From positions 1,535,966-1,599,965 of the forward strand of contig CP060531.1 in NCBI GenBank assembly GCA_016806715.1: a stretch of 64,000 bases of DNA. The letters are read 5' to 3'. The DNA is from Thermoplasmatales archaeon (lineage in GTDB: Archaea > Thermoplasmatota > Thermoplasmata > Thermoplasmatales > Thermoplasmataceae). Both the position numbers and the translations under genes were made by a program. Below the pieces are notes generated by a model. It saw only the letters and a program-made list of their open reading frames with translations, ran no database searches and had not been told where the DNA came from. Positions 16,366-62,664 of the stretch are shown here, piece after piece. Numbering within the stretch: the first letter of the stretch is position 1; the number at the start of each line of letters is the position of its first letter.

Positions 16366-16438
16366 GGGTCTGTGGGGTAGCCTGGTATCCTTCCAGCTTC
16401 GGGAGTTGGAAACTCCGGTCCAAATCCGGACAGACCCA
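16366..16438 (+). tRNA. tRNA-Pro(CGG), probable integration site
   Basis: GGGTCTG pairs with CAGACCC as acceptor stem, the D arm is GGGGTAGCCTGGTATCC, the anticodon stem-loop is CCAGC-TTCGGGA-GTTGG (anticodon CGG), and the T arm is TCCGG-TCCAAAT-CCGGA with discriminator A. The T loop has C where nearly all tRNAs have U/pseudouridine at position 55. No intron. A tyrosine recombinase gene starts 61 bases downstream, so this tRNA is the likely attachment site, and its 3' part may have been supplied by the element. Confidence 0.87.
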
Positions 16439-16439
16439 C

Positions 16440-39622: not shown

Positions 39623-40585
39623 TTATGATACAGTTCCTGCTGTTTCACCTCCTTTCCTTCTTGTCATATTCTCTTCTCTCCTTAATATCCTTGCCTTCTC
39701 GATCTTTGCTTCCCTTATGGCCAGTAGAACATCAGGCTCTCCCCTGTAATACTGTATCGGCGTGAGATACTGCAGGGAGGAATGTCTTCTTTCGTTATTG
39801 TAGTGCTGGATGATCCTGGATATCTCAGATTTAGCCTGCTCGTAATCCATCAGGATCACCGGTACCAGGGATTCCCGCATGGTCTTGTTGGCTCTTTCCA
39901 CAATGCCATTCTGTTCAGGTGTATGTGGCCTTATTAATTTTTGAGTGAGGTGGTTCTCCCTCAGGACAAGCTTGAACTCCATGGCGATGAATGATGAACC
40001 GTTATCCGACTGAATAACCGGTTCCGCAAGTGATGATTTTCTCAGTATGTCTATTGCAGCCTGCGCTTCCAGAGACACGGAATCGGCATCCATTGATGTC
40101 AGCAGTGAATGGTGCACTATGTACCTGGAATACTCGTCTATGAAGATCAGGAGATAGAAGAATCGTCCATTTATTTTGACGTACATAATGTCTGTCTGCC
40201 ATCTTTCGTCAGGCCTATTTGCATGTTCCGGGCGGGTGGATTCCCACGACGGCCTTTTCCATTCAACAATGAGGTTGTTCCTCTTCAGAATGCTGTATAC
40301 GGTGCTTGGAGACAGGTACGCAATGTCCTCGTCCATCATTGCGTATGCAAGCTCCCTGAATGACATTTCCGGGTGTTTATGCTTGTATCCTATCACGATC
40401 CACCCCTCATCATCCCTGACAGCCAGCGGATTGAACCTTCCGTCCAGGAGCGGCGAGAATTCTATCTGTGCATAGTACCATGACCTTGGTATGCCAAGGA
40501 TTGAAAGCACCCTTACCAGAGGATATCCTGCCCTTTCAACCGCGTTCATGACTGTCCGGTGGATGTCATAGAACAGGGATCTCAT
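39623..40585 (-). CDS. IS3-like transposase, OrfB (DDE integrase)
   Basis: A 320-residue transposase with the retroviral integrase fold: RWQTDIMYVKI (first Asp), VIQSDNGSSF (second Asp) and NGIVERANKT (Glu). The N-terminus carries an HTH-21-like region (LAYAMMDEDIAYLSPSTVYSIL). Its start overlaps the stop of orfA by four bases; in IS3 elements OrfAB is often made by frameshifting. Confidence 0.92.
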   Translation of the reverse strand: MRSLFYDIHRTVMNAVERAGYPLVRVLSILGIPRSWYYAQIEFSPLLDGRFNPLAVRDDEGWIVIGYKHKHPEMSFRELAYAMMDEDIAYLSPSTVYSILKRNNLIVEWKRPSWESTRPEHANRPDERWQTDIMYVKINGRFFYLLIFIDEYSRYIVHHSLLTSMDADSVSLEAQAAIDILRKSSLAEPVIQSDNGSSFIAMEFKLVLRENHLTQKLIRPHTPEQNGIVERANKTMRESLVPVILMDYEQAKSEISRIIQHYNNERRHSSLQYLTPIQYYRGEPDVLLAIREAKIEKARILRREENMTRRKGGETAGTVS

Positions 40586-48164: not shown

Positions 48165-49358
48165 TTGCTTGAACAGGAGGGATGGTACATGATAAGGAGC
48201 TTGAAGGATCAGGGACTTTCGATCAGCGAGATCGCCAGGAGGCTGGGGATAAGCAGGACAACAGTGAGGAAGTATCTCAAATCGGGTAAGGTACTGCAAT
48301 ATCACAGGGATCCTGCAGGCTCCATGATCAAGTCATTCCTGCCGCTGGTGAGGGAGATGATAGATCGGCACAACCTCTCAGCCGTCAGGATATATGAGGA
48401 ACTTAAGAAGAAAGGCTTCAAAGGATCATATTCCCTCGTGAAACAGTACAGCAGGCCTATGCGTAATGACAGGAAGATCCTTGCAGTCTACCGTTACGAG
48501 ACGGATCCAGGAAAACAATCACAGGTGGATTTCGGAGAATTCGGATACATCGAAATTGATGGGAAAAGAAGGAAGCTGTATGCATTCAGCATGATCCTTG
48601 GATTTTCCAGGATGAGATATGCCGAATTCACTACAGATATCTCAACCCACAATGTGATCAGGCTGCATCTCAATGCCTTCCGCTACTTCGGAGGATACAC
48701 TGATGCAATCCTTTATGACAATATGAAACAGGTTGTCCTTGACAGGAAGCTGAAGACCTCAGATTCTACGTTCAACGGCGAATTCATGAGCTTCTCCGAG
48801 TACTATGGCATCATTGTAAGGCTCTGTTATCCCTATCGTCCCCAGACAAAGGGCAAGATCGAGAACACCATCAAGTATCTCAGATACAACTTCTGGGCAG
48901 GCAGGACATTTGAGTCTCTCCCGGATATTAATGCCCGGTGCGATGAATGGCTTCAGAAGGTCAATTCCCAGACCCATGGCACCACGCATGAAATCCCGCA
49001 GGAAAGGCTGAGGAAGGAGCAGCTCAATCCACTGGATTCAGTGCAGGCCTACCCCATAAGGATAGAGGAGATAAGGAAGATATCAAGGGACTGCTACATC
49101 TCGTACAAGGGTAACAGATATTCAGTTCCCTGGATACATGCAGGCAGGGTGGCCAGGGTCATAGAATCATCGACCCTGAAGATACGGGTTGATTCCCGGA
49201 CCGTGGCGGAACATGATATTCTCCCCGGAACTGGTAGGATATCAAGGAAGAAGGAGCATTTTGAGGGCCTTCTCAAAGCGATCAGGGAACAGAACATCGA
49301 GAACTTCCAGACAAGGGTTGAGAAGCGTGATCTCTCAGAATATGAGGGCGTGATGTGA
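48165..49358 (+). CDS. istA: IS21 transposase IstA
   Basis: A 397-residue transposase: HTH (LSISEIARRLGISRTTVRKY) at about 15-35, DDE core with QVDFGE (Asp), ILYDNM (Asp) and KIENTIK (Glu). The C-terminal beta-barrel (YISYKGNRYSVPW) is the family's usual end. It joins the element's ends to the target with IstB as helper. Confidence 0.95.
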   Translation: MLEQEGWYMIRSLKDQGLSISEIARRLGISRTTVRKYLKSGKVLQYHRDPAGSMIKSFLPLVREMIDRHNLSAVRIYEELKKKGFKGSYSLVKQYSRPMRNDRKILAVYRYETDPGKQSQVDFGEFGYIEIDGKRRKLYAFSMILGFSRMRYAEFTTDISTHNVIRLHLNAFRYFGGYTDAILYDNMKQVVLDRKLKTSDSTFNGEFMSFSEYYGIIVRLCYPYRPQTKGKIENTIKYLRYNFWAGRTFESLPDINARCDEWLQKVNSQTHGTTHEIPQERLRKEQLNPLDSVQAYPIRIEEIRKISRDCYISYKGNRYSVPWIHAGRVARVIESSTLKIRVDSRTVAEHDILPGTGRISRKKEHFEGLLKAIREQNIENFQTRVEKRDLSEYEGVM

Positions 49359-50116
49359 TGGATCCATACGAAAGAGTGCATGAGAGCCTAATCACCCTAG
49401 GACTGGACACCATTGAGCATACCATTGACAATTATCTGGAAAACGCGAGGGACAGGAGTGTCATCGATGTCCTGGACCACCTCCTTTCTGAGGAGGTGAA
49501 GAGCAAGCGATCAAAGAGATATGAGACGAAGCTGAAGTATGCAGGTTTTCCCTTCAGGAAAACAATGGAAGAGTTCGATTTCTCCTTCCAGAAATCCATT
49601 GACATGTCAGTGATTGATGATCTCATGACCCTCAGGTTTGTGCACAACAGGGAGAACCTCGTATTTCTGGGTCCACCGGGTGTCGGCAAGACACACCTGT
49701 CGGTTGCACTGGGAATGAGGGCACTCCAGTCCGATGTTTCCACATATTATATCTCTGCTGTAAAGCTGGTGCAGTCCCTCAGGAAGGAATACCTGAGAGA
49801 CAGGCTGAACATTCTTCTCCGCAGTTATTCGAGATACGCGCTCATGATAGTGGATGAGATCGGCTATCTCCCGCTGAATCGTGAGGAGAGCAATCTCATG
49901 TTCCAGCTTGTCTCACACAGGTATGAGAAATCGTCCACTATCTTCACCTCGAACAAGTCTTTCTCTGAATGGGGTGAAGTCATGGGAGATCAGGTGATGG
50001 CTTCGGCCATCCTTGACAGGATACTGCATCACTGCACGGTGTTGAACATCAAAGGTGAGTCTTACAGGCTAAAGGACAGGCGGAAGGGCAATCCTCCGCC
50101 GTATAAGGAGAAGTGA
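49355..50116 (+). CDS. istB: IS21 helper ATPase IstB
   Basis: A 253-residue AAA+ protein related to DnaC: Walker A LGPPGVGKTH, Walker B LMIVDEIGYL, sensor TSNKSFSEWGE. It remodels target DNA for IstA. Its ATG overlaps the istA stop (GTGATG). Confidence 0.95.
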   Translation: MMDPYERVHESLITLGLDTIEHTIDNYLENARDRSVIDVLDHLLSEEVKSKRSKRYETKLKYAGFPFRKTMEEFDFSFQKSIDMSVIDDLMTLRFVHNRENLVFLGPPGVGKTHLSVALGMRALQSDVSTYYISAVKLVQSLRKEYLRDRLNILLRSYSRYALMIVDEIGYLPLNREESNLMFQLVSHRYEKSSTIFTSNKSFSEWGEVMGDQVMASAILDRILHHCTVLNIKGESYRLKDRRKGNPPPYKEK

Positions 50117-50392: not shown

Positions 50393-51709
50393 TCACCCCC
50401 GGTCGTCCCGGATATCGGAATTATCGGGCTTGGGTTGTGAACCTTTTTTTTCTAGTCGCGGATCTGTCGCGGGTCTCTCAGAATCACCCGAGACAACTTT
50501 TTTATTAGCATTTCCTAGAGTTGAACTCTCATCTGTCGTGGAGACCCTCTTCCCTTCCTCATGTTCATGTTTTCCGTAAAAATTTTTGTCTGCGAAAGAA
50601 GATCCGCGACTGATTGTGTCTGGGTTAATCTCTGACTGGCCTTTTTGCTGTCGTGGGCCATTTTCGAGATCCGAGACAGTTTCCGCGACAGGCATCCATG
50701 TGACATTGAGCAGATCGCACCAGGCCTTGGTTCTTGAACCGCTTGTACCTATTCTTTTGTCAACTGTCGGGTTCGAGTATCCCAGAGTGTTAAGTGCCTT
50801 TCCTATGCTTGCCGCATTAATGTTCTTTATAGGGAACCCCTTTTCAGTTGCCCATTTTACGGCAGCAGTAATAACTTCCTGTTTGGGTGTTGTCAGGTAT
50901 TCATCAAAACTACCCTTGTAGCTGCCGGTAATGTACCTCTCTGGATCTCTGCCCGTGATTTCGATAATAACCCTGGCGTCTTCGATATCTGTAATTATTA
51001 TTTCATTATCATTAAGCAACCTTAGGTAAGCCAGGGCAGGGTTTGATCTCTTCTCCCATTCTTTCTTTGCCTCGTTCAAGTTCAACTGGCCGGTGAACTT
51101 CATGCGTGTTGTTAAAGGCCCGTAGTAGTTGTCTATTACATAAGAAAATATCCTGTCAAGTTCCTCCTTGTCCTCTAATTTTTCTACTACTTTCTTTATC
51201 TGTTCTGGGATCATTACATCCTCCAGGACATTCGGGAAATCTATAATGTCAATAACCCTCCTGTAAAACGCCCGCAGTTCGTTTTCCTTATCCGGCAGTT
51301 CATTCGTATCAATTATCTGCTTGGCATGGCTTGCAAATTTGAAGGGATGTCCGTTTTTCCTGTCAACCGTGATCGTAGTACCATCCGTTACACGTTTAAA
51401 CCATTCAGAGCTTAGAATTTGAAAACTACTTTCAGATATGAGGTTTGCCCAGGAACCGTACAGTTCAGCACGCTTGAATTTATCTTCCTCAAGTTCCTCA
51501 AGTGTGATAGAGGAAGTACGAACCAGGAGGTTTTCCACTACCTTGTGAATGATACTTTTGCCTTCTCCTCCCCGTCCGTACATCACAACCGTACCTTGAA
51601 TGCTATAATTCTTCATGAGTGTCCAGGCTATGGTTTCGAATATCTGGGTTTTTTTAAGATCTGCTTTCGGATCACCCTGAAGCATGGTATCCAGGAACCC
51701 AATAAGCAC
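50393..51709 (-). CDS. D5-like (P4/SF3-type) helicase, primase domain missing
   Basis: A 438-residue protein. VVMYGRGGEGKSIIHKV is the Walker A of D5/P4-type replicative helicases; LISESSFQ, DRKNGHPFKF and IIDTNELPD follow as in that family, and a C-terminal winged-helix-like region and low-complexity tail close it. Viral and plasmid homologues usually carry an N-terminal primase (AEP) domain, absent here. The start is GTG 51709; a palindromic TATA box GGGTATATACCC (51726-51737) is about 22 bases upstream, so the short form looks like a real transcription unit. It should unwind the element's DNA for replication. Confidence 0.72.
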   Translation of the reverse strand: MLIGFLDTMLQGDPKADLKKTQIFETIAWTLMKNYSIQGTVVMYGRGGEGKSIIHKVVENLLVRTSSITLEELEEDKFKRAELYGSWANLISESSFQILSSEWFKRVTDGTTITVDRKNGHPFKFASHAKQIIDTNELPDKENELRAFYRRVIDIIDFPNVLEDVMIPEQIKKVVEKLEDKEELDRIFSYVIDNYYGPLTTRMKFTGQLNLNEAKKEWEKRSNPALAYLRLLNDNEIIITDIEDARVIIEITGRDPERYITGSYKGSFDEYLTTPKQEVITAAVKWATEKGFPIKNINAASIGKALNTLGYSNPTVDKRIGTSGSRTKAWCDLLNVTWMPVAETVSDLENGPRQQKGQSEINPDTISRGSSFADKNFYGKHEHEEGKRVSTTDESSTLGNANKKVVSGDSERPATDPRLEKKGSQPKPDNSDIRDDRG

Positions 51710-52792: not shown

Positions 52793-53022
52793 CCATTATC
52801 TTCCAGGTTTCCGCAGGATAGTTCGCCTGGTCAGCTATATGGTGTCTTCGAAAACAGTCGTTTCAGGGAATTGGCGCTGGAAAAATGTCCTGAATTGACA
52901 GTATTAAACAGGAGAATTGATTTTTTTTAATGGCTGATCCGAGAAAAATTACAGGCACTGTGCTCGGCGCAATTGTCCACGAAATTCTCACCTTCAATGA
53001 AAGATGTATATAGATCCTCCTT

Positions 53023-53145
53023 AAAACGCAAAAAGGGCGACCCCGCACAAAGCGAAGCCGCCCTTAAAAAATCCCAAAATCCGTATCTCCATACATGCAA
53101 AAAGGGGAACCCCAAACCAGTATGGTTCAGAGTTCCCCTTTAAAT
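53023..53145 (-). terminator. Tandem hairpin-plus-T terminators closing the small-gene train
   Basis: Read on the minus strand: first stem AAAGGGGAAC/GTTCCCCTTT (53101-53110 with 53132-53141) followed by TTTTTGCATG, then stem AAGGGCG/CGCCCTT (53033-53039 with 53059-53065) followed by TTTTTGCGTTTT. A third similar hairpin lies at 60384-60415. Strong hairpins with T tracts at the end of a 10-kb transcript look like terminators or 3' end stabilisers, unusual for archaea, which mostly use T tracts alone. Confidence 0.7.
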
Positions 53146-53163
53146 TACTCACGACAAAAATAT

Positions 53164-53658: not shown

Positions 53659-53698
53659 TCTCTCATTTTCCTGGCTCTTTCGAGCACGACATAAAAAA

Positions 53699-54172
53699 TT
53701 ATTTTTTAGATTTAAACAGTTTATGTTTTTTAGCAGGCGAGGTCTGAGTGCCTAGAACCTCTTCTCTCATGAGTTTTTCAGCCATATTTGAAGCTGCTCC
53801 TATTACAGTGTCCATCCTGTGGTAGAGTTCCCCTGCTTTGCTCAGTTCCTCCCGTGAATTGAAATCTGCCGTCAGCATAAATTCCAACTGCTCATTCGCA
53901 GTCTCCTTCATTTCCAGCAGGTAGGATTTCATCTTTGGTATCGGGCTCCAATCGATAAGGCTCGTGAACTCACCGTCTATGGCTTTCGATAGTTTTTCAT
54001 ATTTATATCGAATCCCATCCTCCAATTCCTCTCTCCTGTCCGGGTCTGTTACAGACCAGTCCTGTTTTATATCCTCATAAAGTTCAATGAGGTACCGTAC
54101 ATCCCAGTAAAGCCACTCATAGGTCTTTAGAGGTCTCCATCGAAGATTTCTAAAATTTCCTCTCAGTGCCAT
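53699..54172 (-). CDS. Hypothetical helical protein (157 residues)
   Basis: Starts MALRGNFRNLRWRPLKTYEW at 54172, after GAGGTGAAACGG; a GTG at 54181 is less likely because it would lie in the binding site. Mostly helical, with a basic C-terminus (AKKHKLFKSKK). The stop TAA runs straight into the TTTTTTATGTCG box. The junction upstream (to the 54192 gene) lacks the box, so these two genes are directly coupled. Confidence 0.6.
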   Translation of the reverse strand: MALRGNFRNLRWRPLKTYEWLYWDVRYLIELYEDIKQDWSVTDPDRREELEDGIRYKYEKLSKAIDGEFTSLIDWSPIPKMKSYLLEMKETANEQLEFMLTADFNSREELSKAGELYHRMDTVIGAASNMAEKLMREEVLGTQTSPAKKHKLFKSKK

Positions 54173-54191
54173 CCGTTTCACCTCTGCAAGA

Positions 54192-54581
54192 TCAGGCCAG
54201 AGATCTGTATCTCTCCTCGCTGATATCTCTCAGTTGCGGCATCTGGTCTCCGGGCGTTGCTTCATCTCTTTCGAAATATCTCTGTTCTCCGAAGATTCTT
54301 TTCCTGACGTACACCATTCCATTAGTTCCCAGGCTCTCGATCCCGAAGTCCTCGAAATCTTCATCAGTTCTTCCAAGAGAAGATGCAGGTGCATAATACC
54401 TGCCGTTCTCCCTGAACCTCAGTCTAAGCCTCGCATCCGCAGGAAGCCAGGCTGTCTGAATGGTTATCAGCAGCATCTCCATGGCATCCTTCACGGCGTA
54501 CTCCGGTGCGTTGTCATTGTTTGTTCCTCTCAGGATATCGTCCGACCCGAGCGTTGTTTCTACAATTTGGTACTTTCTCAT
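54192..54581 (-). CDS. Hypothetical protein (129 residues)
   Basis: A soluble protein MRKYQIVETTLGSDDILRGT with an Arg/Asp-rich C-terminal half (RYFERDEATPGDQMPQLRDI). Ribosome binding site GGAGAAAGGAG lies 8-17 bases before the ATG. Its leader has a duplicated box (TTTATGTCGTGCG and GCGTGCACAAAAAT). Unknown family. Confidence 0.58.
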   Translation of the reverse strand: MRKYQIVETTLGSDDILRGTNNDNAPEYAVKDAMEMLLITIQTAWLPADARLRLRFRENGRYYAPASSLGRTDEDFEDFGIESLGTNGMVYVRKRIFGEQRYFERDEATPGDQMPQLRDISEERYRSLA

Positions 54582-54649
54582 TGTCCACTCCTTTCTCCTC
54601 TATTTTTGTGCACGCAGGGTTTCATTGGTTCCCGTACGCACGACATAAA

Positions 54650-54832
54650 TTAACGGTTGGAACGGTAGACGTTCACGCCCATCATTACGCCTGGTTTGCC
54701 GGCAATTGGTTTGTTCCCCTCACTGGACGCAATTATTATGCTCTTCCCAGATGAGCTTGACCCAAACTCCTTGCTCAGGTCTACCGTTATGACCAGCCTG
54801 TCTCCTTTCACTTCTGTCTCTATGTTTTTCAT
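54650..54832 (-). CDS. Small virus/plasmid-type protein (60 residues)
   Basis: MKNIETEVKGDRLVITVDLS continues GKSIIIASSEGNKPIAGKPG and ends GVNVYRSNR. The strand pattern VxGDxLxIxVDLS...GKSxxIASxxG...GVxxGxNVYR recurs in small phage proteins of unknown function, so this is a mark of viral origin. The ATG at 54832 follows a GGAG site; the hairpin TGCC-GAAA-GGCA (54847-54858) lies just upstream. Confidence 0.65.
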   Translation of the reverse strand: MKNIETEVKGDRLVITVDLSKEFGSSSSGKSIIIASSEGNKPIAGKPGVMMGVNVYRSNR

Positions 54833-54867
54833 AGCTCCTTTTCTCCTGCCTTTCGGCAACATAAAAA

Positions 54868-55575
54868 TTAGTATTCGCAGGGCTCTAGGAGACCGGTGAG
54901 GTGTTTGTACGCCTCAGGGAGCATCCTCTCGATGTCAGCCTTGAGGTCCTTAATTGAATCCCCCATGAATCCTCCACAGGAGTCTATGTCCTCATCAGTA
55001 TCTGCATTGTATAACCTGAACTCGTAGACTTCTCCCCTGAGGTACAGATCGTAGGCATGGGCCTCTTCCCTCAGCTGATCCTTTGCTTTCTCCCTCACTT
55101 CTTCCGTGATCTCTGCCACTCCGAACTCTTTTTTTATACTATTTTCGGTAGCGTATATTATCCCCGTAATGTTCCAGTCCCAGCCGGCACCGTCCATCAT
55201 CCTGAACAGTCTGCTGCCGGTCGACATTGATATGCCGCTGTGGTCGTACAGATACAGCGGCAGCAAGGCTGTCTTCGTATGCATCAGAACTGCACGGAGC
55301 AGCACGCTGGAGTCAGCATAGTAGCTGATGTTTTCCCTCTGGGTCTCACTGAAATCAAATTTCTCGTCCAGTATATCCAGCAGGATTTCATCAACCTCAT
55401 GCTGTGTTCCAATCTGCCTGTCGCCAAGCAGGTACCTCGGATGCCAGCACACCATTTCTCCCATGTTATCCCACTCTCTGGGATCAACTGGGTCTATCTC
55501 CTGTGTAACCTCCAGCACCATGCCGTTCTCCTGGGCTTTATAGTCGGGCACTACCACCTGTTTTGTTATTATCAC
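54868..55575 (-). CDS. Virus-type protein of the 'DPREWDNMGEMVCWHPRYLLGD' family
   Basis: About 235 residues. The motif DPREWDNMGEMVCWHPRYLL and the later PLYLYDHSGISMSTGSRLF, GIIYATENSIKKEFGV are shared by a common phage protein family of unknown function. I place the start at GTG 55575, after GGAGAGAAAAAA; the longer frame to 55608 begins inside the TTTTTATGTCGTG box and its hairpin (55590-55601), which are repeated noncoding leader elements. Ends EPCEY with TAA in the next box. Confidence 0.75.
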   Translation of the reverse strand: MIITKQVVVPDYKAQENGMVLEVTQEIDPVDPREWDNMGEMVCWHPRYLLGDRQIGTQHEVDEILLDILDEKFDFSETQRENISYYADSSVLLRAVLMHTKTALLPLYLYDHSGISMSTGSRLFRMMDGAGWDWNITGIIYATENSIKKEFGVAEITEEVREKAKDQLREEAHAYDLYLRGEVYEFRLYNADTDEDIDSCGGFMGDSIKDLKADIERMLPEAYKHLTGLLEPCEY

Positions 55576-55613
55576 TTTTTTCTCTCCTCGCTCTTTCGAG
55601 CACGACATAAAAA

Positions 55614-55826
55614 TTAGAAAATTACCGTGCCATTAAATTTGACCAGTTTTGCCTCAATTCTATGGCTCGTTAAGAAGCTCAGGAAATCCTCAACGGTGAA
55701 ATCATCATCAGTATACTCTCTCCGTCCCATCCTGTACATTTCAAGCCATTCATTTACTGTTTCAACGTCTGGCAGGTCTATCTCTACCAGGAACACAGAC
55801 TCCGGGTTACTTTCCCGATAGTCCAC
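55614..55826 (-). CDS. Hypothetical protein (70 residues)
   Basis: Begins GTG (MDYRESNPESVFLVEIDLPD) and contains TDDDFTVEDFLSFLTSHRIE; acidic, alpha/beta. The leader carries the T box and a TCCCGG/CCGGGA hairpin (about 55849-55867), and a GGAG site about 14 bases before the GTG, rather far, so the start is uncertain. Confidence 0.5.
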   Translation of the reverse strand: MDYRESNPESVFLVEIDLPDVETVNEWLEMYRMGRREYTDDDFTVEDFLSFLTSHRIEAKLVKFNGTVIF

Positions 55827-55882
55827 TTTATAGTATGGCGTTCTCCTATCCCGGAATTCCCCCGGGAAGTCACGACAAAAAA

Positions 55883-56842
55883 TTATTGCTCCATTCTTGG
55901 AGCCAAGAGATATTTTACTTCCGTGCGGTGGTCTCTGCTCATCCTGTTTAAGGATTCCACAGAGAAATCTATGACCGCAGGATAGTCGCTCCTGAACTGG
56001 AATTTTATCTCATCCACTGTCTTCATTGCCATTGCGAGCTTCAGCAGGTAATCAAGAGGGTATGCTGCCCTGGTCTGCTCATTGCAGACAATCTCTTTCA
56101 GCATGTCCTTCGTAAATCTTGATTCACTTTCCTCACCGTCACTGAATGCAAGCATCTTGAGACCGTCTTTATTCAGCGTGAACCGTATCGCATCGGATAC
56201 GTGCTCGGCCGCTTTCAGTACATTCCTGAAAGTAGAGGCGTTCATTACAAAGCTGCTGTCGGTCATAATGACGGGTAAGTGCGGTACTGTTACGCTCTGT
56301 GAGTCAAGCAGTTCGTAATAGGTCTTGCTTGGTCCAACGGTCATAACCAGTCTGCTTTCCCCTCCCTCAAGCTCTATGATATCATCTTTAGAGCCCTGTG
56401 GAATGATCTTCTTCAACCGGTCAATATCGAGTGTCCATGTCGCCAGGTTTCCCTGAAGATAGTATTCAGAAAATGCCTCTCTCGGTATCCTGATTTCTAT
56501 CATACCCACATGGGCCGGGTCGATTGCCTTGGCCTCCATTCCTTCCGGCCCGAAGTTGAGCTTTACCTCATTCTTTACGGCATTCAGAAGACCAATTATC
56601 TCCTTGAACTCACCATACCTCAGTGCAATTCTCAACGGGGCGTCTCCGTTCTCCGGCTTCTTCTCCTCAGCTTTCGGAGCCCTTAGAGGTTCTCTGACCG
56701 GTTCGCTCTTCTTTTCCTCCTCTTTTGCGTGCGTCTCAACCTGTACTTCCATAACAGGCGTGTTCTTCTTTCCTACCAGCTCTCTCTTCTCTGGCTTAAG
56801 GTCAGTCAGAGATACAGTTTCCCAGTTTTCTTCGCTTTCCAT
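55883..56842 (-). CDS. PCNA-like sliding clamp 1, with N-terminal extension
   Basis: A 319-residue protein. From about residue 68 it is a clear PCNA: LRIALRYGEFKEIIGLLNAV, FGPEGMEAKAIDPAHVGMIE, a central linker and the C-terminal TEVKYLLAPRMEQ. PCNA trimers encircle DNA and tether polymerase, ligase and nucleases. The first 65 residues are an acidic/basic linker-like extension (EEEKKSEPVREPLRAPKAEE) unusual in cellular PCNAs. A second clamp is encoded 2.3 kb upstream at 59171. No DNA polymerase is present, so the clamps may redirect host enzymes. Leader has the GTCCC/GGGAC hairpin, shared with the end of the tiny zinc protein. Confidence 0.88.
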   Translation of the reverse strand: MESEENWETVSLTDLKPEKRELVGKKNTPVMEVQVETHAKEEEKKSEPVREPLRAPKAEEKKPENGDAPLRIALRYGEFKEIIGLLNAVKNEVKLNFGPEGMEAKAIDPAHVGMIEIRIPREAFSEYYLQGNLATWTLDIDRLKKIIPQGSKDDIIELEGGESRLVMTVGPSKTYYELLDSQSVTVPHLPVIMTDSSFVMNASTFRNVLKAAEHVSDAIRFTLNKDGLKMLAFSDGEESESRFTKDMLKEIVCNEQTRAAYPLDYLLKLAMAMKTVDEIKFQFRSDYPAVIDFSVESLNRMSRDHRTEVKYLLAPRMEQ

Positions 56843-56864
56843 TTTCTCTCACTCTCAGTCCCTT

Positions 56865-56972
56865 TCACAGGGACGCAACATAAAAATGACCACACTCAAG
56901 GCATGTGCTGCCCATTATGTTTCCATAAATCGTCGTTACGGAAACTTCGCATCCGCATTTCTCACATTTCAT
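56865..56972 (-). CDS. Tiny zinc-ribbon protein (35 residues)
   Basis: MKCEKCGCEVSVTTIYGNIM then TCLECGHF and a stop inside the leader hairpin of the clamp gene. Two CxxC pairs form one zinc site. It begins directly after a T box without a hairpin and ends 22 bases before the PCNA ATG, so the two are probably translated together. Confidence 0.6.
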   Translation of the reverse strand: MKCEKCGCEVSVTTIYGNIMGSTCLECGHFYVASL

Positions 56973-56984
56973 GGCGACAGAAAA

Positions 56985-57110
56985 TTAAGGCTCTACGCTA
57001 AGATATTCTCCATCTGGTTTAATTAAGGTTTTGTCCGAGAGTTCAAACGCCATGGTGTGGTGGTCATAAGTCACAGTCTGTGTGACCATATCAGTGTGTG
57101 TCCCTCCCAT
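56985..57110 (-). CDS. Small hypothetical protein (41 residues)
   Basis: MGGTHTDMVTQTVTYDHHTM continues AFELSDKTLIKPDG and ends YLSVEP. Its TAA runs into TTTTCTGTCGCC, a variant of the junction box, then the next ATG. No family. Confidence 0.45.
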   Translation of the reverse strand: MGGTHTDMVTQTVTYDHHTMAFELSDKTLIKPDGEYLSVEP

Positions 57111-57155
57111 ATACCTACTTTAACCACGGTATCAGGTTTAGCCTTTGCACGGCAT

Positions 57156-57278
57156 TCAGTTCTGTTTTTGCCGAACGCCACTTCTCGTTTTCGCTTCTCT
57201 CTCAAGAATTACCCCTATGCAGGGACCATCCGGTATATCCTCTGTATTTGCTCTCTCCTCCTTCTCCTTATAGGGCAC
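57156..57278 (-). CDS. Small hypothetical protein (40 residues), start uncertain
   Basis: Reading from GTG 57278, VPYKEKEERANTEDIPDGPC continues to SGVRQKQN and TGA. The GTG lies in the T box, before the GGAGGAGAGAG binding site, which is odd; a start after that site would be non-canonical. I list it because the frame fills the interval between two good genes. Confidence 0.35.
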   Translation of the reverse strand: MPYKEKEERANTEDIPDGPCIGVILEREAKTRSGVRQKQN

Positions 57279-57288
57279 GACATAAATA

Positions 57289-57507
57289 TTAAGATTTTTT
57301 AGGGTCCCTCGCACAGTATTCCCCCACATAAACGCCATCCAATTCCAAGACCATTGAACGGTCTCCTTTCCTGTTCCTGAAGTGATCAAGAACAAGGTGG
57401 TACCCAGATGGGCATCTCTCTTCCGGGAACCTGATATGAGGGTACGGACGTTTTCTCATCTCGTCCGTGATCTCATTTTCCTCTCTAAAAAGGCTGTATG
57501 GTTTCAT
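57289..57507 (-). CDS. Hypothetical protein (72 residues)
   Basis: MKPYSLFREENEITDEMRKR, then FPEERCPSGYHLVLDHFRNR and ends YCARDPKKS. GGAGAAATGGA precedes the ATG; the hairpin GCTC-GAGA-GAGC (57520-57531) and T box lie upstream. TAA then TATTTATGTCG follow at its end. Unknown function. Confidence 0.6.
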   Translation of the reverse strand: MKPYSLFREENEITDEMRKRPYPHIRFPEERCPSGYHLVLDHFRNRKGDRSMVLELDGVYVGEYCARDPKKS

Positions 57508-57545
57508 TCCATTTCTCCAGCTCTCTCGAGCGACATAAAAATTGA

Positions 57546-58036
57546 TTAAAAGAACTGTTCCGAGTAGGTCAGTAGATGCTGGCGCTTCTCTGAGCTCATG
57601 TCGAGATACTCAGTCCAGGGCGTTCCCCAGTCCTGGTATTCCATCCATGCCCTTTTAGGTCGGCCATCTGAGTCAAACTCACCTACTATTCTCACAGCAG
57701 GTCCGCCGGTGCATAGGAGGATCTCAAATTCCTCAGGTTCGAGTTTTTCGCCCGGGTTTGTCCATCCAGACCTAACCTGAACCTCAAGGGGATCCTCTTC
57801 TATTGCTGTTCTTACTGCATCTTCGTCGTGGTATTCTTCTCTCTCTTCATCGGTAACTTTGTCACCGGGAGTGTATGAATACCCAAGACCCTCACGGATC
57901 TCTTCGTCAGTGAGTTCGCAATCCTCTCCATCGCATTTCTGAGCATGTTCCAGTTTATCCACCATACTCACTATGTTCGCCAGCTGCGCAGCAGCCTGCG
58001 ACCTCGCTTGTTCGTCCTTTTCGGTTTTCATTTCCA
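57546..58036 (-). CDS. Hypothetical acidic protein (163 residues)
   Basis: Starts MEMKTEKDEQARSQAAAQLA at 58036 after GGTGAGAAA; the longer frame to 58094 would run through the leader hairpin GCCCC-GGAGA-GGGGC (58046-58060) and is rejected. Strongly acidic centre (DEEREEYHDEDAVRTAIEED). Soluble, no known motif. Confidence 0.6.
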
Positions 58037-58090
58037 TTTTCTCACCGCCCCTCTCCGGGGCGCAACAAAAATGTGTTGGGGTCAATTCCC

Positions 58091-58360
58091 TCAAAAATTA
58101 TTTCTTACCTCTTCGGCTACCCATTCTGTGACCGCTTCGTCAATGCAGTCATATGCGTCATCCATATGACGTGCATTGATCTCCAGTTTCCCAAGACTGG
58201 ATTTGAATATTGCGAACGAACCAAAACGGTAAACCGTAAGCTCATCGTTATGGTCAAGTGCGGCCAGCAGCTTCTTGTCTGCATAATACCGTGACTTAAC
58301 GATGTTCGGTACAGCCGATACAAATTCTTCGAATGGTATGTCCTCTCTTCCTGTTTCCAT
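58091..58360 (-). CDS. Hypothetical protein (89 residues)
   Basis: METGREDIPFEEFVSAVPNI starts at ATG 58360 (GTG 58369 is an alternative). Helical C-terminus (DDAYDCIDEAVTEWVAEEVR). Its leader has TCCC-GGAA-GGGA (58377-58388) after a TTTTTTGTAGCG box. Unknown function. Confidence 0.55.
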   Translation of the reverse strand: METGREDIPFEEFVSAVPNIVKSRYYADKKLLAALDHNDELTVYRFGSFAIFKSSLGKLEINARHMDDAYDCIDEAVTEWVAEEVRNNF

Positions 58361-58400
58361 TTTTTTCACTCTTCTATCCCTTCCGGGACGCTACAAAAAA

Positions 58401-58799
58401 TTAAAAAAATCCATTTCCGGGATCCATTATACGACCTTTCTCCACGTTTTTTATAGAACACGACAGGTTTCCGTTCAATTCCCAATCCTCTATAATCTCT
58501 CTCAGGCTAAACCAGCCCCTGTATTCTGGTAAGAACACAAATTCTTCTGGCTCGTCTGCAGAGATAATTTGAGACATCTCAGGATATTCATTGAATCTTG
58601 CCACCCTGTCTTTCATTCCAAGCCTGTTCGACCAGTAATCACTGTCGGCTATATGGTCATAATTTGGACCTGGCTTTACTGACAACCGATCATCAAAGAA
58701 GAAGTCAGGGTCTGTCTCCGGATGCATCGCTGGTATCTGGAATCTCCTCTGCACTTTCTTTATTTCGGTCTCCTCAAACCTATTTTCTTCCACGGTCAT
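58401..58799 (-). CDS. Hypothetical protein (132 residues)
   Basis: MTVEENRFEETEIKKVQRRF starts after GGTGATAAA. A Tyr/Trp/Pro-rich middle (DHIADSDYWSNRLGMKDRVA) and acidic stretch (ISADEPEEFVFLPEYRGWFS). The junction upstream (58800-58820) has the T box and ACGGTGATAAA but no hairpin, the same short leader as the 58821 gene. Confidence 0.58.
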   Translation of the reverse strand: MTVEENRFEETEIKKVQRRFQIPAMHPETDPDFFFDDRLSVKPGPNYDHIADSDYWSNRLGMKDRVARFNEYPEMSQIISADEPEEFVFLPEYRGWFSLREIIEDWELNGNLSCSIKNVEKGRIMDPGNGFF

Positions 58800-58820
58800 T
58801 TTATCACCGTAACATAAAAA

Positions 58821-59129
58821 TTAAAATTCAAATTTTGGGGTATTCGTGCTCATCATATAGCTACTGGCTGCCACATGCTCATTTGCGAGATGTTCTGCCC
58901 AATCATCCACAGGAATAATGATCCCACATTCGTCATCTTGCATATAGAGTCCATCAGGGACTCCCGTAAGTTCTACTCCTGTGTGTTCATTGTCGTCTCC
59001 CATGGTATCGTAGTTGTCCGGAATAAACGTCCGGATTTCCATCTCTTCTGCATCTTTTCGCTGTCCATCGCTATATGCCACTTTCCTTACATTTACCCCT
59101 GTGTCAAAATCAAACTCGGTGTCATCCAT
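58821..59129 (-). CDS. Hypothetical acidic protein (102 residues)
   Basis: MDDTEFDFDTGVNVRKVAYS; nearly a quarter Asp/Glu, no membrane segment. Leader GTTGCGGTGATAAAGAA without a hairpin. Ends PKFEF with TAA merged into the next T box. Such acidic small proteins in viruses can mimic DNA, but there is no evidence here. Confidence 0.55.
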   Translation of the reverse strand: MDDTEFDFDTGVNVRKVAYSDGQRKDAEEMEIRTFIPDNYDTMGDDNEHTGVELTGVPDGLYMQDDECGIIIPVDDWAEHLANEHVAASSYMMSTNTPKFEF

Positions 59130-59170
59130 TTCTTTATCACCGCAACAAAAAATTAAGAGATCAAAAATTT

Positions 59171-59977
59171 TTAATCCTTGACCAGAGGTGCTACTATATA
59201 GTAACCTTTTACCGGATATTCGTGCTGCTTGTTCTTTATTTGCAGCCTGATTCCCATCTTCAATGGGATATCCGTTTTGTATCTCAGTAGCAATTGGTCG
59301 TCCCTTACGAGCCTCAGCGTCTTCAGAAGCAGATCAGTGACATATCTGGCAGTCTGCCCTTCCGGGAATGAGTTTTTCTCTCCCAGCATGGTAATTACCT
59401 CTGTCTTCTGATCTCTCTTCCCTGATAGCTTCAGGATTATCTTCCCATTCTCGCTTACTGTTTGGAAGGTTATATCTTCTGCCCCCATGTCCTCAAGGTT
59501 CTGGATCGCCGTATAAAGCCACTTTCCGTTAAGTGTCATACCATACGGCATATCTAAGTCCGGGATGTAAACAGGCGTAGTGGAGCTGATCGTGCCTACA
59601 GTCTTCTTATGGGCATCACCAGTCTCGATCTCTATCTTCTCACCATTCTTGTTGAACTTCATCATCGCCCCAGATCCAAGCTCGTTTGTTACGCTCTTGA
59701 AATCCGCAGGGTCGACTGCAAAGGTCTGTTCCCCGTCATACTTGAATGAAGCCATGTCAGTCTTGTTTATGTAGAATATTCCTATCCTTGATCGTCTCTC
59801 GTCCATGCCGTAAAACCTTACGCCACTTCCGTTCACGTTTATCAAGACCTCATGTGTGTCCATAGCATACGGGAAGAACCTCATTATCTTCCTCATTGCC
59901 ATCTGTTCAACCTCAAAGGTTGCTTTTACTCCAGTCGCCATCTTCTCCATCTTCGGAACCATTTCCGTTTCCACCAT
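59171..59977 (-). CDS. PCNA-like sliding clamp 2, divergent
   Basis: A 268-residue protein with PCNA layout: two similar halves, central AVDPADFKSVTNELGSGAMM, and the last third LLLKTLRLVRDDQLLLRYKT, DIPLKMGIRL and GYYIVAPLVKD, corresponding to the final strands of PCNA. It is much more divergent than clamp 1 and lacks its long N-terminal extension. Two different clamps in one transcript suggest a heteromeric ring or separate roles. The start at ATG 59977 follows GGGAGAGAAAAGGAA; the longer frame to 60019 enters the leader. Confidence 0.78.
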   Translation of the reverse strand: MVETEMVPKMEKMATGVKATFEVEQMAMRKIMRFFPYAMDTHEVLINVNGSGVRFYGMDERRSRIGIFYINKTDMASFKYDGEQTFAVDPADFKSVTNELGSGAMMKFNKNGEKIEIETGDAHKKTVGTISSTTPVYIPDLDMPYGMTLNGKWLYTAIQNLEDMGAEDITFQTVSENGKIILKLSGKRDQKTEVITMLGEKNSFPEGQTARYVTDLLLKTLRLVRDDQLLLRYKTDIPLKMGIRLQIKNKQHEYPVKGYYIVAPLVKD

Positions 59978-60024
59978 TTCCTTTTCTCTCCCGACTTCTT
60001 CATTCAGAAGCCACAACATAAAAA

Positions 60025-60324
60025 TTAGAGAAAGACCCAGACGAGCTTATGCTTCTTTTCTGGCTTATCTCCATCCAGTGTATCAGGATAGGCCACGGTG
60101 GTTACCAGAACGGCACAGCCCTCATCATCCCTGTACACCAGCTTAGCGGAATCCACTACGCTGGCTTGTGTCACGAGTGCACGTGCGTGCCATTCTGTAC
60201 CCATCTTAGCTGTCCTAAGCTGGTTATAATAAATATCGTAGTTACCATCTGCGACGCAATACTTCGAATGCCCCTGCAAACGAATAGCTACTTTCTTTAT
60301 TTCAGTTATTTCTGTATTTACCAT
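60025..60324 (-). CDS. Hypothetical protein (99 residues)
   Basis: MVNTEITEIKKVAIRLQGHS, beta-rich (YRDDEGCAVLVTTVAYPDTL). Preceded by GGCAGGAGAAAAAGG, the GCTCT-GAGAA-AGGGC hairpin and a T box. The N-terminus (TEITEIKK) resembles that of the 58401 product (ETEIKKVQ), hinting at a shared N-terminal segment. Unknown function. Confidence 0.58.
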   Translation of the reverse strand: MVNTEITEIKKVAIRLQGHSKYCVADGNYDIYYNQLRTAKMGTEWHARALVTQASVVDSAKLVYRDDEGCAVLVTTVAYPDTLDGDKPEKKHKLVWVFL

Positions 60325-60383
60325 TCCTTTTTCTCCTGCCCTTTCTCAGAGCACAACATATTTTGGTATTTCCATAACGCAAA

Positions 60384-60415
60384 AAGGGCAGTCTCCCTTT
60401 CGGAAGGCTGCCCTT
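60384..60415 (-). terminator. Hairpin-plus-T element inside the train
   Basis: On the minus strand AAGGGCAG/CTGCCCTT (60408-60415 with 60384-60391) closes a branched loop containing CCGAAAGGG, followed by TTTTTGCG. Same design as the two terminators near 53.1 kb. It separates the structured, gene-poor region (60.4-61.2 kb) from the genes below and may be an attenuator or processing site. Confidence 0.6.
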
Positions 60416-60528
60416 CATGTATTGGAAAGACCATTCCTCACAGGGCTCCAGTTCGGTTTCCCTCTCTGGTCATACTCTGCAATTCCTGATCTCGATGGAA
60501 GATCAGTTATGCATCCATTGTGCATACA

Positions 60529-60684
60529 TCATACCCGTTCCGGTTCGGCGTTGAAACTCCATTGGTTCAACAGAGCCATCGCAGGTTCCCCAGTTGACCG
60601 AAGTCTTCTGGAGCCAATAAGACTGAGCTTTTTACGGCTCTGCCTCTTCTCCTCTGCCTCTTCTCCTCTGCCTCTTGGCGACAC
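60529..60684 (-). CDS. Possible small basic protein (51 residues)
   Basis: From GTG 60684: VSPRGRGEEAEEKRQSRKKL, then GEPAMALLNQWSFNAEPERV and TGA. The frame covers a 14-base tandem repeat and one CRATGGA hairpin. No clear ribosome binding site except in an upstream hairpin (GAGGGG/CCCCTC). May be fortuitous. Confidence 0.3.
   Translation of the reverse strand: MSPRGRGEEAEEKRQSRKKLSLIGSRRLRSTGEPAMALLNQWSFNAEPERV
60638..60677. repeat. 14-base tandem repeat, nearly three copies
   Basis: CTCTGCCTCTTCTC occurs at 60638-60651 and 60652-60665, and a partial copy (CTCTGCCTCTT) at 60666. A period of 14 is not a multiple of three, so it is not a simple codon repeat. Pyrimidine-rich on the plus strand. 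Confidence 0.75.
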
Positions 60685-60770
60685 GAGGGGCAGCTACTCC
60701 CCTCTTGCTGTTTATTTCAGCCTGTGGTCGCATGCACGTCCCTCGTGGTTACACACGATACGCTCACATC

Positions 60771-60899
60771 TCAGTAAGCCCACAGCGCAACATAATCAGG
60801 CATCAGGGAAAACTGCATCCATTGTGCAATCCTGCAAACCGATAGAACTCCCTGTATGTTTTCTGGCTGTCCATTGCAGCCATAAGCCATCCAGTTCAT
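60771..60899 (-). CDS. Possible small protein (42 residues)
   Basis: MNWMAYGCNGQPENIQGVLS continues VCRIAQWMQFSLMPDYVALWAY. A UUCG-capped hairpin (60910-60921) and a GGGGG purine run lie just upstream of the ATG, matching the general leader design. The frame overlaps two CRATGGA hairpins, so RNA structure is the competing explanation. Confidence 0.35.
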   Translation of the reverse strand: MNWMAYGCNGQPENIQGVLSVCRIAQWMQFSLMPDYVALWAY

Positions 60900-60981
60900 T
60901 CGTTTCCCCCTGCCGAAGCAGAGAGCATGCTAACCTATCCGAAGACAGGCTCCCTTGCGATCCATCAAGTTAATGGAACCT

Positions 60982-61113
60982 CTAGGCATTCGGGACATTC
61001 CGGTTGCCCCATCCGGTTCCGTAGTCATTGCCTTTTGGGCTGCGATACAATATCCGGAAAAAATATCGCCCTTCTACGGTTGCGTCGCTGTCAAAGTGGA
61101 GCTTTATACCCAT
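60982..61113 (-). CDS. Small hypothetical protein (43 residues)
   Basis: MGIKLHFDSDATVEGRYFFR continues ILYRSPKGNDYGTGWGNRNV and PNA. The composition is that of a real protein. The hairpin AACACT-GAAG-AGTGTT lies directly before the ATG. Likely a genuine small gene of the train. Confidence 0.5.
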   Translation of the reverse strand: MGIKLHFDSDATVEGRYFFRILYRSPKGNDYGTGWGNRNVPNA

Positions 61114-61198
61114 CGTAACACTCTTCAGTGTTTCCTCTCTCGTGTCTCACCTCACGGTTTCCCGTAAGTCCGTTGAGGGTTTTGCTCCTCGCTGCATT

Positions 61199-61271
61199 CC
61201 ATCCTCCCCTCATTTCTGAGGCGCTACACTTTTCCCTTAGTTATTACTTCTCCATCTGGGTATATAATATC
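61199..61271 (-). promoter_or_regulatory. Promoter P3 with tetraloop leader hairpin
   Basis: TATTATATACCCAGATGGAG (minus strand, from 61269 downward) gives a TATA box at about 61259-61270 followed by the conserved CCCAGATGGAGAAGTA. Initiation is expected near 61237. The leader then holds CCTCA-GAAA-TGAGG (61208-61221), GGGAGG and an ATG that opens a 16-codon frame (MECSEEQNPQRTYGKP). Confidence 0.65.
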
Positions 61272-61314
61272 TTTCTTTATCCCAGAGCCCATTTTTGGGG
61301 CTCCGCTACATAAA

Positions 61315-61647
61315 TTAATCAAAGAGGTGTTTTTCTATCCCTTCGGTATTTCTCCATTCATCGGAGACTACCTTTATCTTGATAGTTGATCCCCTTTTGG
61401 TTGTAATTAAAAGATTAGACGCTATAACGATTCTCTGCTCAAATGGATTTTTCAATCCACTGATCATGTAAAACGGACTCTTTTTTAATTCTTTCACCAT
61501 TTCTCTTGAGATGTTGAACATTACGTAATGTTTTTGCTTCAGTTGTAGCTCTTCCTCTTCGTCAAGAAAAGCCTCCACCTGCCATCCATTCACGGTTGCG
61601 TCTCTTTTCTCCATTTTTTTCTTGAAAATTACTCCTATTTTAATCAT
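61315..61647 (-). CDS. Hypothetical protein (110 residues)
   Basis: Starts MIKIGVIFKKKMEKRDATVN at 61647, after TAGGAGATATTAAA. The frame stays open upstream to an ATG lying in the CRATGGA loop at about 61785 (MDTGNFQGIF...), so a longer form with 46 more residues is possible; the T box/hairpin and binding site at 61650-61680 favour the short form. Strand-rich, unknown family. Confidence 0.6.
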   Translation of the reverse strand: MIKIGVIFKKKMEKRDATVNGWQVEAFLDEEEELQLKQKHYVMFNISREMVKELKKSPFYMISGLKNPFEQRIVIASNLLITTKRGSTIKIKVVSDEWRNTEGIEKHLFD

Positions 61648-62038
61648 TTTAATATCTCCTACCCTATTTCTTTGGGCGTAACATTCTGTTCGTATCAGTT
61701 TCTTATCCTTCCTTGCGGTCATCGTATAAGTTACCAATACAGGGCACTCTCTTGCGAAAATACCCTGAAAGTTGCCTGTATCCATCGTGCAGTCAGGTCT
61801 CCTTCGCACAGATTAGTAGTTCTCAGTCATCCATTGTGACCTTGATAGTCTCACCTGTGTTCCAGAGATTGTCATTAAAGACACCACACTCCCTTGCGGA
61901 AGTGACTTCCACTCTTTCGAGCTACTGCGGACTTAATGAATAACGGTATTCAAAAAACTTCCAACGTCCCTGCCGGAACACTGGGGATCATACCAACTCC
62001 TGCGTCTATACTGTTTTCTTCCGTCCACTACATAAAAA
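61648..62038 (-). ncRNA. Structured spacer with tetraloop hairpins and tiny frames
   Basis: Holds strong hairpins with GCAA loops: GGGTATTTTC-GCAA-GAGAGTGCCC (61742-61765, ten pairs with wobbles) and CACTTCC-GCAA-GGGAGTG (61888-61905), plus two CRATGGA hairpins. Small frames with binding sites include MIPSVPAGTLEVF and MTISGTQVRLSRSQWMTENY. It could be a regulatory leader RNA or a run of very small genes; I cannot decide. Confidence 0.4.
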
Positions 62039-62218
62039 TTAGAAATCATAAGGACCCTCTTCTACACGAATTGACGTTGGTTCGCTCCCTTCAGAACAAG
62101 AGTTTTCAACAGATTCGACATCGAAGTCGATTATCTTTACCCTTATTCCTTCCGGTATCTTTGTTACCGTAGCTACTCCACCACTCAACTCGATTACCAC
62201 TTCATCCTCTTTTCCCAT
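62039..62218 (-). CDS. Small virus-type protein (59 residues)
   Basis: MGKEDEVVIELSGGVATVTK then IPEGIRVKIIDFDVESVENS. The pattern VVIEVSGGVAxVxxxPxGVxVxIxDxD is that of small phage proteins of unknown function, again pointing to viral origin. ATG 62218 follows GGAGAGATAAAA; the longer frame to 62254 is in the leader. TAA merges into TTTTTATGTAG. Confidence 0.68.
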   Translation of the reverse strand: MGKEDEVVIELSGGVATVTKIPEGIRVKIIDFDVESVENSCSEGSEPTSIRVEEGPYDF

Positions 62219-62588
62219 TTTTATCTCTCCTTTTAGGGTTTTACAGTTCCCCAACTGGCTTTATCGCATCATTTTATGTTTCGACCCCCAAGAACCCATC
62301 CGCCTTTCGGCGTTATTAGAAGGTCGGTCTACCTATAAGGGTTGGATTGTTTTAGTCTTGATCTGGTAGTCCCTTTCGGGCACTGGTAGCCAAGCTCCCC
62401 CTATAAGCACTACTCTGTAGAGATCACAGGTAGATCATCAGGCGCATTCTTTTTACAAGGAGGTAAGGGAATCTTCCACCTCTATTGAGGTATCTCTGGT
62501 CATCCGTTACCCAGCGTAACTTAATCGCTACATATGGGGAGGGTTAATCCCCAAAACCCGTTTATTTCACTCTTCTACAAATATATCT
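62219..62588 (-). ncRNA. Long structured leader downstream of promoter P2
   Basis: About 350 bases between P2 and the first clear gene. It contains GTTAC-GCTGG-GTAAC, ACCTC/GAGGT, CCC-GAAA-GGG, CGCC-GAAA-GGCG (62301-62312) and CAGTT-GGGG-AACTG, and only tiny frames such as MTRDTSIEVEDSLTSL. A structured RNA (leader or stable ncRNA) is the simplest reading; very small genes are the alternative. Confidence 0.4.
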
Positions 62589-62612
62589 TTTCCATCTGGG
62601 TATATAAAGGTT
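62589..62612 (-). promoter_or_regulatory. Promoter P2
   Basis: On the minus strand AACCTTTATATACCCAGATG (from 62612 downward) then GAAAAG: a canonical TTTATATA box with AAACC as BRE-like element and the conserved CCCAGATGGA downstream. Initiation is expected near 62577. Confidence 0.7.
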
Positions 62613-62664
62613 TTGCTTATATGCTCCTCCCAGAGCCCTTCCTCGGGGGCTCCAGCGACAAAAA

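Follow-up and report, generated by a model that had tools for sequence, protein, structure and literature searches.

How might one long transcript of a mobile element be divided into separately controlled messages? The division of polycistronic RNA is poorly known for archaea and their viruses, and the question is raised by a train of small genes on the minus strand of a 64,000-nucleotide stretch of DNA (G000:C1:1535966-1599965, hereafter the window) from a 1.96-Mb archaeal genome. The train runs from 62.8 to 53.1 kb and includes a PCNA gene and a second PCNA-like gene (PCNA-like 2); together with a primase/helicase of the phage/plasmid P4-related type at 50393-51709, it points to a virus- or plasmid-like element. 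The original prediction for this locus described about seventeen junctions in which a stop codon merges with a T-rich box, followed by a small hairpin and a ribosome binding site (RBS). We found that such a junction module does exist, has RNA-like features and is confined to one small element family. Eighteen boxes were counted on the minus strand. The train does lie at 53674-62660, where it had been placed, and its boxes reach slightly further, to 62664 and 53160.

All 18 boxes, read directly in the sequence, lie on the coding strand of the train. The box is a fixed motif of 9-11 nt, made up of a stop codon, T3-6 and [A]TGT[Y/A]G; T-runs of three to seven at stop codons were found at nearly all junctions, and terminators that depend on aCPSF1/FttA have a U-tract of four or more where the transcript ends. 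When a strict box was defined as TAAT3+A?TGT[TCA]G (TAA, at least three T, an optional A, then TGT[TCA]G), the train gave 11 matches in sense and none in antisense, against a mean of 0.01 in dinucleotide shuffles, and the remaining 52 kb of the window gave none. The exact sequence TAATTTTTATGTYG occurs three times in the whole genome, every copy in this train. PCNA-like 2 matched contig C41 of a Thermoplasmata metagenome-assembled genome, G078 (60% identity, E 3e-114), which carries an equivalent and mostly collinear train with about 25 boxes, usually of the form TAATTTTTTGTYGC; here the strict box was found 18 times in sense and never in antisense (shuffles about 0). A further genome, G079, contributes a contig-end fragment with the first junctions and two of the noncoding RNA segments described below (a and b). 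Over 46 box sites from the three genomes, one of the three G079 sites being perhaps a false pattern match, T-T-[T/A]-T-G-T-[C/T/A]-G-[C/T] is nearly fixed, with T, T, G and T invariant and G near-invariant. Boxes are present also where a gene is followed by a promoter only, or by nothing, so that they belong to gene 3' ends too. A box-like sequence stands before the noncoding RNAs.

The short junction was assessed by the box pattern and a folding test, as its variable stem and loop lengths leave little information for a covariance model. The 36 nt after 43 boxes (18 in the window, 25 in the relative) had a summed fold energy of -355.7 kcal/mol, while 300 dinucleotide shuffles of the post-box spacers gave -217.9 +/- 12.4 kcal/mol (best -255.8). 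The real sum lies about 11 standard deviations beyond, and the stems are better paired than shuffled spacers, as had been anticipated; control stretches 150 nt downstream also fold more weakly. The stem starts 0-1 nt past the box in 32 of 38 detected stems, in a search that covered offsets of 0-4 nt and favoured small ones. At most junctions a Shine-Dalgarno sequence (SD) lies directly 3' of the stem and the start codon is outside it. Where a separate leader hairpin is missing, the stem often encloses the start codon, and some stems hold the SD and/or the start codon (59152, 58818 and relatives). A hairpin with an RBS at each junction describes most of them, while several stems contain the start codon and not every junction has a separate hairpin or RBS. 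That the loops are mostly of the GNRA type was overstated: about five of the 18 window loops are exact GNRA (58400, 57541, 55613, 54867 and 53698), and among the others are pentaloops (GGAGA and GTGAA, for example) and long loops.

Two further features bear on what the module does. Eight genes with neither an SD nor a separate leader hairpin begin 1-2 nt past the box G, seven of them exactly 2 nt past it (GTYG-CN-ATG). The stems hold 20 G-U against 5 A-C pairs when both are scored symmetrically, which argues that the hairpins are kept as sense-strand RNA; it appears that sense-strand RNA is what stays paired and the form in which the hairpins act. A stem that abuts the box and a fixed start-codon distance both make sense if an RNA begins in the box, and on this sequence evidence RNA 5' ends seem to be fixed by the box. 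The U-tract was also predicted to pair with the purine-rich SD sequence, a pairing that may reflect composition only.

The hairpins were also compared with those of G078. Most train orthologues are about 30-66% identical between the two elements, and at orthologous junctions the hairpin is kept with altered stem letters. When seven such junctions were aligned by hand, 12 of 40 aligned pairs had changed on both sides and four on one side, bearing out the claim that stem letters differ while pairing is kept. The G078 element also contains two diverged HicBA-like toxin-antitoxin pairs (L031/L032, joined coordinates 19163-18664 and 16306-15806).

The family is small. Apart from one 27-base match to noncoding segment c in G109 (E 5e-4), neither 117 genomes of the order nor a draw of 400 from the class gave a further match to the element parts tested; in the 117 genomes the box pattern outside the element family stayed at the level of the reversed control, and its matches look like chance. 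Among viral contigs no relative was found with PCNA-like 2, a 129-aa protein or two 18-20-mers of the noncoding RNA; at least 120 viral contigs with TAATTTTTTGTTGCG had at most two strict boxes each in the stretches covered, among the matches listed, and no train was seen. Phage and plasmid records gave no DNA match to the noncoding RNA stretch. The expected recurrence of the module in related elements was met with in the diverged G078 train, within a single small family and not as a spread through Thermoplasmatales genomes.

We favour the view that the module is an RNA gene separator of this element family, a 3'-end or processing signal joined to a hairpin that protects the next 5' end, and put its chances at about even. 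It takes up what was observed: the box, the abutting stem, their conservation and covariation, the fixed position of start codons and the lack of an upstream TATA element. A few canonical promoters would start long transcripts of the integrated element, and the RNA would be ended or cut at each box (U3-7, [A]UGUYG, directly past the stop codon). The 3' end of the upstream message would form at the box and the 5' end of the downstream RNA in or just past GUYG. The abutting stem would then stand at the extreme 5' end and shield the RNA from 5'-3' decay; alternatively, it might block an exonuclease that, if unhindered, would pursue the polymerase and bring it to a halt. The SD would come next, after the protecting stem, and a start codon 1-2 nt past GTYG would give a practically leaderless message. 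Archaeal mRNAs with a leader of no more than 5 nt are classed as leaderless, a type of message in wide use in Thermoplasma (PMC7531240). The cut might be made by host FttA/aCPSF1 or by an element protein. The host does encode aCPSF1/FttA (TIGR03675, 930.8 bits vs a cut-off of 580.2), and the archaeal enzyme combines binding of U-rich RNA with cleavage downstream of U-tracts and 5'-3' exonuclease activity (PMC7515710, PMC8716108, PMC11616081). A stem directly past the cut could halt this exonuclease and so uncouple cutting from termination. The proposal of a transcript ended or cut at each junction, with protection of the next 5' end, is consistent with the abutting stems, the fixed SD-less starts, the absent TATA elements, the sense-strand G-U pairs and the conservation; it loses ground on its GNRA loops, which are a minority, and on the narrow distribution, and cutting and its enzyme are here putative. 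The junction is available in about 43 natural variants, orthologous pairs among them, in which box, stem and start-codon distance can be separated, so that coupled cutting and protection become directly testable.

Several observations weigh against this separator. Thermococcus FttA cuts 9-14 nt downstream of its U-rich site and leaves U at the new 3' end (PMC11616081); this geometry would place the cut inside the stem, so FttA acting at GUYG fits imperfectly. The invariant GT.G letters exceed the needs of a plain U-tract terminator, and with terminators in series little RNA would reach the last genes unless read-through were high. The gene boundary at 54192/54181, the single one of its kind in the window, has no box. 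Stems are weak or missing at a few junctions (62038 (short window), 57286, G23019, G13056 and G12364), and hairpins also follow the boxes at 62664 and 61314, which precede promoters and not genes. A bolder version, which we offer as a tentative possibility, is that the family has its own RNA punctuation code, in which the 9-11 nt box and abutting stem would be the target of a dedicated cutting activity at about 20 places, converting a few long transcripts into messages of single genes, in part leaderless, and into several structured noncoding RNAs with repeated CNAUGGA-loop hairpins.

Could the boxes instead be plain leaky U-tract terminators in an operon, as in methanogens, with hairpins that keep the RBS open or insulate it, and with downstream messages made by read-through and having no 5' end at the box? 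Archaea are known to have both U-tracts at stop codons and terminators within operons (PMC10450193), and the SD directly past the stem at most junctions suits this account. We regard it as doubtful, as it leaves unexplained the invariant GT[Y/A]G, the box-abutting stems and the SD-less starts fixed just past GTYG. Among the closest known cases are the internal operon termination sites of Methanococcus maripaludis (aCPSF1 and a U-tract; PMC10450193, PMC8716108), which share a U-tract directly past a gene within an archaeal operon, aCPSF1/FttA being present in our host too. Unlike these sites, the junctions described here, known from their sequence, combine a fixed box of 9-11 nt that includes GT[Y/A]G with an abutting stem and a fixed start-codon distance, and this combination recurs at nearly every junction of one element. 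The T-run comes before the stem, the reverse of the order in a bacterial intrinsic terminator; the standard order of stem then T-run is confined to separate hairpins, e.g. at 60405-60363 and 53140-53105. The module resembles known archaeal U-tract 3' ends, to which it adds the fixed box, the abutting stem and the start-codon register. Newly seen here are the box-abutting stems, the eight genes that begin 1-2 nt past GTYG, the lack of an upstream TATA element at boxes and the conserved structured noncoding RNAs that match no Rfam family. Phage T7 has RNase III sites between its early genes, and T4-like phages have intercistronic hairpins. They share with our train one long viral transcript and a structured element per gene boundary, and differ from it in that the train has a T-rich linear box before the hairpin, varying stems, no long duplex of the RNase III type and an archaeal host. 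In yeast mitochondria a conserved dodecamer just past stop codons marks mRNA 3' ends on polycistronic transcripts. The box is likewise a short conserved sequence past the stop codon, of another sequence and organism, to which a downstream stem and an SD are added.

Cassette recombination, with gene plus box as a mobile cassette whose box and hairpin a recombinase would read as single-stranded DNA, as in integrons, was already held the less likely explanation, and we consider it unlikely. The homology of the two G078 HicBA pairs spans exactly from box to box (T-run to T-run), so boxes do bound units of gene gain; one small gene is placed differently in the two trains, and tyrosine recombinases are present. 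Like our boxes, the attC sites of integrons lie at the 3' ends of same-strand genes, with a hairpin close by. However, a separate hairpin, which a cassette array would have at every cassette end, is missing at the start of both HicBA units and at other junctions, most genes are collinear between the trains, and the tolerance of G-U rather than A-C, the GNRA-type loops and the tie to start codons indicate sense-strand RNA. One G078 recombinase scored 69.8 bits with TIGR02249 against a cut-off of 265, and the window integrase had no such match; the absence of a recognised integron integrase and the RNA-type sense-strand pairing set the module apart from attC. The claim that boxes are recombination sites is weakened by this, while the one duplicated HicBA pair remains delimited exactly box to box. 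Transcription of each gene from its own unusual promoter, with the box as a TATA- or initiator-like signal, seems very improbable. The box is T-rich and near the 5' end implied by start codons, but the TATA element and B recognition element (BRE) of an archaeal promoter precede the RNA 5' end by about 25 nt, and no enrichment of TATA-like sites was found 13-50 nt upstream of boxes: a match of at least six of eight was seen at 3 of 43, vs about 10% in the control. Canonical TTTATATACCCAG promoters lie elsewhere in these elements (TATATACCCAG, with three copies in the window and two in G078); given this and the missing TATA excess, the box probably does not serve as a host promoter. Boxes follow terminal genes too, and no RNA polymerase gene was recognised among the part of the train proteins scanned. 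The least probable account makes the junction a translation device, a stop-to-start bridge aiding re-initiation or a sequestration of the start codon in some genes. The stems that hold an SD or start codon would suit it, as would a U-tract able to pair with an A-rich SD region; against it, the identical box type precedes noncoding RNAs and promoters, and most start codons lie outside the stem.

The upstream part of the train carries structured noncoding RNA segments on the minus strand. Segment a (62271..62534) is 81-82% conserved in G078 and G079, an identity exceeding that of the train proteins, and has a closing stem UAUGU/ACAUA. Segment b, which lies together with the box TTTTTATGTAG in 61683..62038, has many covarying pairs. 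Segment c falls into c1 (60800..61240) and c2 (60360..60800), both with heptaloop CAAUGGA hairpins; the start of c2 is close to UAUGUUGCG, and its last element is a GC-rich hairpin with TTTTTGCG. Segments a, b and c could be aligned to G078, and a and b also to G079. Single-sequence fold z-scores were -2.0 for a, -2.3 for b, -5.06 for c1 and -5.36 for c2. In consensus folds 11 of 79 pairs of a, 27 of 100 of b and 32 of 197 of c had changed on both sides, counts that come from two or three sequences and predicted structures without phylogenetic control. Five hairpins with the identical heptaloop CAAUGGA lie at 61836, 60876, 60824, 60564 and 60520 (minus strand), and none elsewhere in the 64 kb; the aligned places in G078 (joined coordinates 23858, 22651, 22380 and 22331) have CAAUGGA, CUAUGGA or UAAUGGA on other stems. 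This recurrence of a C[A/U/G]AUGGA loop on differing stems possibly reflects a protein-binding or docking motif. Structured segments were also located at L032 6560-4180 and L055 258-1113.

A covariance model of segment a matched in only three of the 400 class genomes, and Rfam had no match above gathering score in 49-64 kb (a single chance match, E 1.6). Identities as rRNA, RNase P or a riboswitch were considered and had no support from Rfam. The large ornate RNAs GOLLD, ROOL and OLE are similar in being large, highly structured noncoding RNAs, and GOLLD is carried by phages and prophages (PMC12286853). Segments a-c differ from them in lacking an Rfam match, in belonging to an archaeal element and in being several segments interleaved with genes; they would represent a large RNA, new and unclassified, in an archaeal mobile element. 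Within c1, the window has about 106 bases more than G078, inserted at 61113-60985 in a 43-aa open reading frame.

The individual junctions (all minus strand) are as follows, from the start of the train. At 62630..62664, TAA with the box TTTTTGTCG is followed by a 9-bp stem CTGGAGCCC/GGGCTCTGG and then by a promoter with no gene; this canonical archaeal promoter, CCTTTATATACCCAG with a TATA element, lies at 62590..62610, and similar ones lie at ~62870 and ~61270. The same order of box and promoter recurs at 61282..61314 (TAA with TTTATGTAG, stem CGGAGCCC/GGGCTCTG). The PCNA-like 2 gene is preceded by TTTTTATGTTG and the stem GGCTTC/GAAGTC at 59990..60024. At 59117..59152 (TTTTTTGTTG, stem CGGTG/CACCG) the hairpin encloses both SD and start codon, and at 58793..58820 (TTTTTATGTTA) the stem ACGGT/ACCGT surrounds the start codon. 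Next come 58374..58400 (TTTTTTGTAG with GTCCC-GGAA-GGGAT), 58043..58071 (TTTTTGTTG with CGCCCC/GGGGCG, before a 182-aa gene), 57517..57541 (TTTTTATGTCG with GCTC-GAGA-GAGC) and 57260..57286 (TTTATGTCG, hairpin weak). A variant at 56970..56984, TTTTCTGTCG-CC-ATG, has the start codon of a zinc-ribbon gene 2 nt past the box without an SD.

The PCNA gene follows TTTTTATGTTG and GTCCC/GGGAC at 56855..56886. Downstream of it, TTTTTTGTCG has a stem of 7-9 bp (55850..55882), and TTTTTATGTCG recurs with GCTC-GAAA-GAGC and GAGGAG (55585..55613). The junction at 54845..54867 combines TTTTTATGTTG, GCC-GAAA-GGC and AGGAG, that at 54610..54649 has TTTATGTCG and a long-loop stem GTGCGTACGGG/CCCTGCGTGCAC, and that at 53670..53698 has TTTTTTATGTCG, GCTC-GAAA-GAGC and CAGGA. 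The train ends at 53100..53160, where the last stop codon and the box TTTTTGTCG are followed by a terminator-like hairpin (AAAGGGGAAC..GTTCCCCTTTTTGCA); the G078 train ends similarly. Terminator-like hairpins were seen at 60405-60363, 53140-53105 and 53067-53022, at least two of the three followed by TTTTTGC[G/A], and the end of segment c has sequence in common with the one near 53022-53067.

At the integrase side of the element, a tRNA-Pro (16366-16439) adjoins an integrase-like gene (16500-17855), whose protein is 38% identical to an integrase-like protein of the G078 element. The 182-aa train protein (57546-58094) has relatives in bacterial phages (Prochlorococcus, Brevundimonas and Erythrobacter) and, at 60% identity, in an IMG/VR contig; as a candidate carrier of the module this contig was set aside, the sequence read having the gene in common and no box train. 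Between the gene train and the integrase end sit insertion-sequence genes at 48165-50116 and 39623-40585, which by eye, on their translations, were taken for an IstA/IstB-like pair and an integrase-type transposase.

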